Source: Geothrix fuzhouensis | GTDB lineage: Bacteria; Acidobacteriota; Holophagae; Holophagales; Holophagaceae | Direction: 5' to 3' | DNA: 64,000 bases | Assembly: GCF_024609325.1 (NCBI RefSeq) | Contig: NZ_JANHMQ010000004.1 | Coordinates: forward strand, 124,001-188,000 | Shown: in pieces, positions 13,436 to 37,464 of the stretch | Numbering within the stretch: the stretch's first letter is position 1 | How the letters are laid out: each line of letters opens with the position of its first letter | Position numbers and translations under genes: made by a program | Notes under the pieces: generated by a model | What the model saw: only the letters and a program-made list of their open reading frames with translations | What the model was told of the DNA's origin: nothing | The model's database searches: none

Positions 13436-13490
13436 CTAATCCGTGGCGAACGGCAGCAGCGCGATGTTGCGCGCGCTTGATGGCTTCCAC
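13436..13490 (-). pseudogene. Truncated, frameshifted copy of the rpsR 3' end
   Basis: 55 nt match the last 57 nt of rpsR (13699-13755), including the stop codon, with a 2-nt deletion that breaks the frame and a few substitutions. A further stretch resembling upstream rpsR sequence (GAGGCGCGGTGGTGGACGGC, two differences from native plus an indel) resumes at 13554 after about 60 bp of inserted sequence. So a longer rpsR copy seems to have been interrupted by the element at 13491-13560. Confidence 0.75.
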
Positions 13491-13560
13491 AGAGGCTCCA
13501 TCTCCGCGAGCGGAGCGAGTGGGAGGGCACGCCGGGGGCGTGCCCGTCAGATGGAGGCGC
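13491..13560 (-). repeat. Two-stem structured element, rpsR locus copy
   Basis: Outer stem CTCCATCT (13496-13503) with AGATGGAG (13549-13556). Inner hairpin GGGCACGCC-GGG-GGCGTGCCC (13525-13545), preceded by GCGAGTGGGAG (13515-13525). An optional short hairpin CTCCGC-GA-GCGGAG lies at 13502-13515. The same layout with different stem bases is found twice near sod (36388, 36649). Confidence 0.65.
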
Positions 13561-13643
13561 GGTGGTGGACGGCAGAAGGCGACCGACCCCGAAGGGGCGG
13601 CAGGGCTCCAGTGGAGCCCTGCCGAGGGAGGCTTTCGTGCGGA

Positions 13644-13698: not shown

Positions 13699-13965
13699 CT
13701 AGTCCGTGGCGAACGGCAGCAGCGCGATATTGCGGGCGCGCTTGATGGCTTCCACGAGGGCGCGCTGGTGGACGGCGCACACGCCGCTGGTGCGACGGGG
13801 CAGCACCTTGCCGCGCTCGGGGGTGAAGGCCTGGAGGGTCTTCACATCCTTGTAGTCGATCATGGTGGACTTCTCGACGCAGAACTTGCAGAACTTCGCG
13901 CGTCGTCCCCCAAAAGCCTTCTTCTTCTTGGGCTTGCCCTTCTTGGCGTCAGCTCGGCGCTTCAT
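13699..13965 (-). CDS. rpsR: 30S ribosomal protein S18
   Basis: S18 binds next to S6 on the platform of the small subunit. 88 residues. Basic N-terminus, then FCKFCVEK and SGVCAVHQR, a Cys-Cys-Cys-His set suggesting the zinc-binding form of S18, and the conserved TERGKV-like LPRRTSG and [17 protein letters not shown]. Its start overlaps the rpsF stop by 4 nt. A broken copy of its last 57 nt lies downstream. Confidence 0.97.
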
Positions 13966-36067: not shown

Positions 36068-36186
36068 ATCGCCTCCGGGAGGGTGCCATCAGGTTACGCC
36101 CAAAATGAGACGGCCCCCGCTCGGGGGCCCCACCACGAGCACGCGTCGAGAGGCACCGAGGTGCCTGCACCCATGGGCTTGCCTGA

Positions 36187-36294: not shown

Positions 36295-36387
36295 TCACTT
36301 CCCGAAGCTCTTGCTGACTTCGCTCCACTTGATGTTCTCGACAAATGCTTCGAGATACTTCGCGCGGGCGGTGCCGTAATCCACCAT
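36295..36387 (-). pseudogene. Extra copy A of the sod 3' end (30 codons)
   Basis: 93 nt equal to the end of sod from internal Met163 to the stop, with R189 changed to S and the stop TGA instead of TAA. It has an ATG, an open frame and GGAG 5 nt upstream (from the adjoining element), so a 30-residue peptide could be made. It lacks metal ligands and cannot be an SOD. Confidence 0.85.
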
Positions 36388-36473
36388 GGAGGCTCCGTCT
36401 CCAAGAGCGCAGGCCCGAAGGGACAAGCGATTGGGAGCACAGCGCGGGGCGCTGTGCGATAGACGGAGGTGTG
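36388..36473 (-). repeat. Two-stem structured element, sod locus copy A
   Basis: Outer stem CTCCGTCT (36393-36400) with AGACGGAG (36461-36468); inner hairpin GCACAGCGC-GGG-GCGCTGTGC (36437-36457) preceded by GCGATTGGGAG. On the minus strand it ends GGAGCCTCC directly at the ATG of sod fragment A. Confidence 0.65.
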
Positions 36474-36555
36474 CGACAGGAGAATAAAGGCGGGCCCCCG
36501 ATCCGGGGGCCCAACCGCGAGCACGCGTTGAGAGGCGCTGAGGCGCTCGCGCGCC

Positions 36556-36648
36556 TTACTTCCCGAAGCGCTTGCTGACTTCGCTCCACTTGATGTTCTC
36601 GACAAATGCTTCGAGATACTTCGCGCGGGCGGTGCCGTAATCCACCAT
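36556..36648 (-). pseudogene. Extra copy B of the sod 3' end (30 codons)
   Basis: 93 nt encoding the same 30 C-terminal residues of sod as the native gene and ending in TAA. The fragment starts at the codon for Met163 and is preceded by GGAGCCTCC. The same remarks as for copy A apply. Confidence 0.85.
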
Positions 36649-36731
36649 GGAGGCTCCGTCTCCAAGAGCGCAGGCCCGAAGGGACAAGCGATTGGGAGCA
36701 CAGCGCGGGGCGCTGTGCGATAGCCGGAGGT
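36649..36731 (-). repeat. Two-stem structured element, sod locus copy B
   Basis: Nearly identical to copy A, but the outer stem right arm is AGCCGGAG (36722-36729), giving one mismatch with CTCCGTCT (36654-36661). The inner GGG-loop hairpin is unchanged. Confidence 0.65.
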
Positions 36732-36885
36732 GTGCGACAGGAGAATAAAGGCGGGCCCCCGATCCGGGGGCCCAACCGCGAGCACGCGTTGAGAGGCGCT
36801 GAGGCGCTCGCGCGCGGCATAACCTCCTCGCCGGGTCCCGACTACGCAGGCTGCCCCGCAGCCTGCTTCGTCACCCGGCGGTCGG

Positions 36886-37464
36886 TTACTTCCCGAAGCG
36901 CTTGCTGACTTCGCTCCACTTGATGTTCTCGACAAATGCTTCGAGATACTTCGCGCGGGCGGTGCCGTAATCCACCATGAACGCGTGCTCCCACGAGTCC
37001 AGCACCACGAGCAGGTCCTGCTCGATGGGCAGGCCCAGGTGATGCTCGGCCACGAAGTAGGTGTGCAGCTTGCCGTCGCGGCGGTTGCGGGTGAGCAGGG
37101 CCCAGCCGGGCCCGCAGAGCGCTGTGGCCTTGAGGTCGGCGATCACCTTGTCCTTGCCGCCCACGGCATCCAGGGCGGCCTTGAGGCCGGCACTGATGGT
37201 CTGGTCGGCGCCCAGGTTCTCGAAGTAGAGCTCATGGAGGAAGGAGCCGTTGAAGGCCACGGCCTCGCGGCGCTTCAGCTCGCTGTACTCGTTGAAGGAG
37301 TAGTTGGCCTTGGTGTTGTCCGCCGCCGCCAGCTTCTCCTCGATCTCGTTCAGCTTGGTGACATAGCCCTTGTAGAGGCCGAAGTGCTGGTCCAGCTGGG
37401 AATCGCTGAGTCCCTTCAGGGCGCCGCCCTTCAGGTGGTCGTAGTTCTTGGCGGTGTAAGCCAT
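36886..37464 (-). CDS. sodB: Fe/Mn superoxide dismutase
   Basis: 192 residues, cytoplasmic, no signal peptide. Metal ligands His27 (DQHFGLY), His77 (NGSFLHELYF), Asp156 and His160 (VLDSWEHAFMVDYG). Whether Fe or Mn is used cannot be decided. The last 30 codons exist in two further copies downstream. It is the first-line enzyme of a cluster with dps, DUF3501 and rubrerythrin. Confidence 0.95.
   Translation of the reverse strand: MAYTAKNYDHLKGGALKGLSDSQLDQHFGLYKGYVTKLNEIEEKLAAADNTKANYSFNEYSELKRREAVAFNGSFLHELYFENLGADQTISAGLKAALDAVGGKDKVIADLKATALCGPGWALLTRNRRDGKLHTYFVAEHHLGLPIEQDLLVVLDSWEHAFMVDYGTARAKYLEAFVENIKWSEVSKRFGK

Follow-up and report, generated by a model that had tools for sequence, protein, structure and literature searches.

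A dispersed, precisely inserted palindromic element of Geothrix with copies beside duplicated gene ends

The stretch of DNA analysed here (the window) comprises 64,000 nucleotides of the Geothrix fuzhouensis contig NZ_JANHMQ010000004.1 and holds members of a dispersed, precisely inserted family of short palindromic elements. We consider the element to be, with fair probability, a palindromic mobile element, non-autonomous and native to the soil bacterium Geothrix and its near relatives among the Holophagaceae, that combines a conserved fold, precise insertion and the re-copying of gene ends. An earlier note on this DNA had offered three readings, a MITE-like element, a structured RNA or a recombination site. 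The dispersed copies and the filled and empty sites bore out the first of these. The other two were not supported, since copies are found in either orientation, in dead gene copies, in other repeats and between genes.

Three copies had been described, at 13491-13560, 36388-36473 and 36649-36731, and all were present. Only two are independent, because the copies at the superoxide dismutase gene (sod) belong to two tandem 261-bp units that are 99% identical (36297-36815). Each unit was delimited as a direct repeat and consists of an element, a sod 3' end and a terminator-like hairpin. The duplicated gene ends reported beside the copies were also real. Copy 1 (13492-13556, + strand; 65 nt, unit GAGG-CTCC...GGAG, delimited by filled/empty comparison; 83.1 bits with the covariance model R1) lies within a spare rpsR 3' end. 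Its folded core (13496-13556, + strand) contains an outer stem P1 (13496-13503 paired with 13549-13556), a P2 stem with a GA/GA internal loop and a P3 hairpin, GGGCACGCC-GGG-GGCGTGCCC. Direct repeats revealed a long arm of spare rpsR 3' end flush with the element (13436-13491, - strand) and a short arm of 17 nt in which rpsR resumes across the element (13557-13573, - strand; GCGCGgTGGTGGACGGC). The outer junction of the rpsR duplication is occupied by a second hairpin element, type C (13574-13640, - strand), of which no second full copy was found elsewhere in the host genome. The intact rpsR gene (ribosomal protein S18, 88 codons; named from the earlier note and from reading the sequence) follows at 13699-13965 on the - strand.

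Copy 2 (36389-36468, + strand; 80 nt, 83.7 bits with R1) lies within the first spare sod 3' end. Its tandem duplicate, copy 3 (36650-36729, + strand; 78.6 bits with R1), has one broken outer pair, CTCCGTCT/AGCCGGAG, when read over 36649-36734. The fold z-scores of the + strand were -3.2 for copy 1, -3.4 for copy 2 and only -1.2 for copy 3. Direct repeats placed the distal and middle spare sod 3' ends at 36299-36388 and 36560-36649 (both - strand), and the window sequence contains the intact sod gene (192 aa) at 36886-37464 on the - strand. As had been noticed from the sequence, the outer stem differs between the two loci by paired changes (CTCCATCT/AGATGGAG at rpsR versus CTCCGTCT/AGACGGAG at sod), the inner hairpins differ and still pair (GGGCACGCC/GGCGTGCCC and GCACAGCGC/GCGCTGTGC), and the linker GCGANTGGGAG is conserved among the window copies. 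The proposed junction at an ATG or GTG codon was seen in the window copies but failed at the uvrA, tRNA-Arg, ftsK and RidA junctions; the link of the element with these codons is a coincidence.

In a pattern search of the host genome, the bare linker GCGANTGGGAG occurred at chance level. Three linker matches outside the window (L011, L015 and L018) had the full architecture, as did L004, which came from a DNA search. The covariance-model search that the earlier note had called for was performed with R1, built from seven element copies. It returned 20 strong copies in the 3.3-Mb host genome (E<=3e-4) and 434 copies, a lower bound owing to stricter filters, in 25 of 25 same-genus genomes, with 3 to 39 copies per genome. 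R1 found no copies in 16 genomes of the class that belong to other genera. Among named genomes, a pattern scan gave matches in Geothrix terrae, campi, fermentans, limicola, paludis and rubra and in other Holophagaceae or Acidobacteria MAGs. Pattern matches in Streptomyces, Variovorax and others were rejected as apparent chance occurrences in coding sequence, R1 not confirming them (best score 23.9 bits). Spread by plasmids or phages was likewise discounted, there being no matches in plasmids or viral contigs.

Comparison of filled and empty sites, the latter present at sod and rpsR in congeners, defined the unit GAGG-CTCC...GGAG, which measures roughly 60-80 nt. In almost every distinct target among the loci compared, GGAGG...GGAG takes the place of four target bases. 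The replaced tetranucleotides at genes were GAGG (rpsR), GATA (tRNA-Arg), GAGG (ftsK) and GAGC (sod, reverse orientation), with CAGA at uvrA and GAAC at sod read by eye. Elsewhere they included GCGT and GAGC at two sites in a TIR element, GTGT/GTAT in an intergenic palindrome, palindromic ATCA sites and others. The base with which the unit opens mostly agrees with the initial base of the target (A with ATCA, C with CAGA, G with G...), which leaves GAGG...GGAG as the unit proper and three bases as the true loss. The filled/empty sites compared gave no sign of a short target duplication. So exact an exchange, with no such duplication, points to the joining of a folded single strand at a gap. Copies were located in intergenic DNA, within other palindromic repeats, and in partial spare copies of genes or tRNA genes. 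A preference for unpaired target bases was considered and rejected (mean 0.47 versus 0.44 at random positions, p=0.34).

Direct repeats of 20-200 nt flanked 65 of 140 copies compared to 5 of 52 control positions. The duplicated sequences were gene 3' ends (sod, rpsR, RidA, yebC-like, ftsK-like), gene 5' ends (uvrA, asd-like) and tRNA genes, those outside the window being named from sequence reading. An intact gene adjoined the spare copy in the cases read, and in the clearest cases the spare copy extended far to one side of the element but by only 6-20 nt to the other. Gene sequence continued past the element with a run score >=8 in 18 of 51 cases, compared to 1% of mismatched pairs. A simple flush long target duplication, which we first favoured, was dropped because the gene sequence runs on to either side of the element. 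Breakpoints recurred across species (sod 482, 495 and 526; rpsR 185, 202 and 233), each with a hairpin element. The same position was occupied in many species at sod, rpsR and RidA, and many copies may therefore be old and vertically inherited. Spare copies often matched the gene of their own species (L100/L101), suggesting that spare and intact gene ends may still exchange sequence.

The coupling of insertion with gene-end copying is suggestive, not proven, and the strongest rival separates the two. Here gene ends would be duplicated first, via other hairpin elements or slippage, the element would insert anywhere, and insertions would survive only in redundant or intergenic DNA, so that selection rather than mechanism links element and duplication. 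We rate this account as a serious possibility that falls short of an even chance. It is favoured by a congener locus (L165) at which rpsR is duplicated, the folded element is missing and type C alone separates the two rpsR ends. This locus, together with the position of type C at the junction in the window, indicates that the rpsR duplication may be older than the folded element. Elements also sit in other repeats without duplication, and several pile up in one dead sod copy (L176, L177, L200). Against this account, the element is unevenly placed in the clearest cases, no more than 6-20 nt from one end of the duplicate (rpsR, tRNA-Arg, sod, ftsK, uvrA, L064), and no sod copy with the same start and without the element was seen.

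The fold consists of the outer stem, a hairpin with a tandem G-A internal loop and a second hairpin. Across 133 distinct copies, standard pairs occupied 96.2% of pair cells and both-sided changes occurred somewhere in 19 of 23 pairs. The covariation score was 0.465; shuffles gave 0.142 and slid structures, a control that preserves relatedness, no more than 0.102. Fitting of the alignment to the structure favours the absolute figure. The fold is kept by paired changes, with covariation far above controls, and neither a lack of further copies nor unpaired changes as common as paired ones was found. G-T pairs outnumbered A-C pairs among element copies (89 versus 18), and the folded strand is therefore probably the + strand of the window, written GGAGGCTCC...GGAG. 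The tandem G-A/G-A loop of P2 was conserved in ~90% or more of copies, and the GGGAG foot of P3 was nearly invariant. The strong covariation, the strand asymmetry and the conserved loop would all suit a structured RNA, regulatory or trans-acting, that dispersed since it is useful and whose fold is kept because the RNA works. This interpretation is improbable given that copies lie in either orientation relative to neighbouring genes and inside dead gene copies, tRNA fragments and other repeats, and that congeners carry anything from 3 to 39 of them. The element had been said to match no family, and Rfam gave none for it; a scan of the window above the gathering threshold returned three tRNAs only.

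A further account starts from a mini-circle, composed of a gene-end fragment and the element, that would integrate at the matching gene to give gene end, element and gene end in that order. This layout fits, as do the tandem arrays (sod, RidA, tRNA-Arg) and the reversible empty sites. However, ordinary recombination between direct repeats also makes arrays, and the 3-bp replacement, the short far arm and the duplication-free insertions in repeats are left unexplained. We therefore give the mini-circle as little credence as the structured RNA.

Our survey for a dedicated transposase was limited to Y1 transposase, reverse transcriptase and Ku, none of which was found in the host. Reverse transcriptase (PF00078) was present in 14 of 41 congeners, and reverse transcription by a resident enzyme was rejected because the enzyme is missing in the host and in 27 of 41 congeners. 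Ku was present in 0 of 41 congeners, and filler DNA joined by NHEJ at a double-strand break was rejected on this account. At one locus (L061), an element adjoins a tRNA fragment and an apparent tyrosine recombinase gene, from which a mover might come. That the element is a REP family mobilised by a RAYT (Y1 HUH transposase) is very improbable: the size class, the palindromic form, GGAG at the P3 foot and paired inverted copies resembling REPINs speak for it, but Y1_Tnp (PF01797) is absent from the host and present in only 4 of 41 congeners, two genomes with 39 and 28 copies (G017 and G018) lack it, and the element has no GTAG tag and is built of two hairpins on a stem.

The element works like a REP or a MITE and falls under neither definition. 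CGTC REPs carry a terminal CGTC tag, an 8-9 bp stem and a CCA tail (PMC3733652), a combination that the consensus columns of the element do not show. Like CGTC REPs and the Rickettsia palindromic elements, for which no dedicated transposase has been found, the Geothrix element forms short dispersed palindromes and dimers, varies in copy number by lineage and has some copies within genes (PMC3733652, PMC2229807). CGTC REPs are, however, single hairpins of 20-40 bp tagged CGTC (PMC3733652, PMC2229807), whereas the outer stem of the element bears two hairpins and the whole spans 60-80 nt. It further differs from them in its GAGG/GGAG ends, its 3-bp replacement and the long duplicated gene ends. 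GTAG REPs and REPINs with RAYT transposases share with it inverted pairs, a tetranucleotide with a hairpin, and a folded single strand as the likely substrate. GTAG marks one end of a hairpin of 20-40 nt, in contrast to the GAGG and GGAG ends and 60-80 nt of the element, and the Y1 transposase expected for such REPs is absent from the host and 37 of 41 congeners, for which reason membership in the RAYT/REP class was rejected. MITEs are likewise small, non-autonomous and dispersed with inverted ends, and the 8-bp, covarying P1 supplies the terminal inverted repeat expected of them. As derivatives of DDE transposons, MITEs leave a short constant target site duplication, whereas the element leaves none and three target bases are lost instead. 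Derivation from a retroelement or group II intron would call for a reverse transcriptase (PF00078), which the host lacks. The double-hairpin elements of fungal mitochondrial DNA resemble the element in having two hairpins, small size and apparent mobility, but occur in a different type of genome. Integrative elements that bring along a replacement 3' end for a gene also leave an intact gene and a leftover gene end beside the element, as here, but the Geothrix element has no integrase or cargo and uses gene 5' ends too (uvrA, asd-like). We found no published description of the family in the literature searched, which was covered in part.

Other repeats accompany the family. A second dispersed element of 270-470 bp occurs at L018/L024 (G000 C4:38134-38541), L027, L030, L046-L049, L051, L069 and L072, without the folded element or with one or two inverted copies of it. 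Its inverted ends, AGAGTGCCTAACAAAACCCC, vary in step at both ends (CCTAAC, CCCAAC, CCAAAC, CGTAAC) and have a putative likeness to attC R boxes. In many congeners, the final 29 nt of rpsR are preceded by a third hairpin element, whose end reads GCATCGTCCCTCGC or nearly so (position 233; L142, L143, L149, L151, L155). A diverged subfamily with GGGGCCCC ends has its own fixed breakpoint at sod position 495 (L173, L174, L176, L177) and scored 27-30 bits with R1. Recurrent intergenic palindromes (GGGGGTCCGGGGGTGTGCGCGCAGCGCGGAACCCCC) act as targets, and terminator-like hairpins repeat at sod (L067, L055, L063, L093 and 36112-36164).

For the mobile element that we favour, we propose that one strand, here the + strand of the window, folds as single-stranded DNA, or less likely as RNA, into the outer stem and two hairpins. 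A gap or a replication fork would be the place where the folded strand enters DNA, and host repair or an enzyme provided in trans would do the joining. Within genes, the insertion would be accompanied by fresh copying of the adjacent sequence, over 20-200 nt to one side and 6-20 nt to the other, such that the host gene would stay whole and the element would end up in a redundant fragment. Tandem arrays would then grow and shrink through recombination between direct repeats. That these steps amount to a new insertion pathway, in which a folded single strand is pasted in, exactly three bases disappear and the end of the neighbouring gene is copied again in the same event so that the host gene survives, is a tentative proposal that we hold to be rather doubtful. 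If true, the element would be a small and selfish one that leaves unharmed the gene into which it inserts.

Bacteria commonly carry short palindromic repeats for which no mover is known, and their means of spread is an open question. The Geothrix family offers a rare handle on this question, with an exact unit, an exact target change, many filled/empty pairs and cultured close relatives. With the unit, the target change and the filled and empty sites in hand, the mover can be searched for and movement can be measured. The gene-end copies linked to the element may also account for puzzling duplications of gene ends elsewhere.
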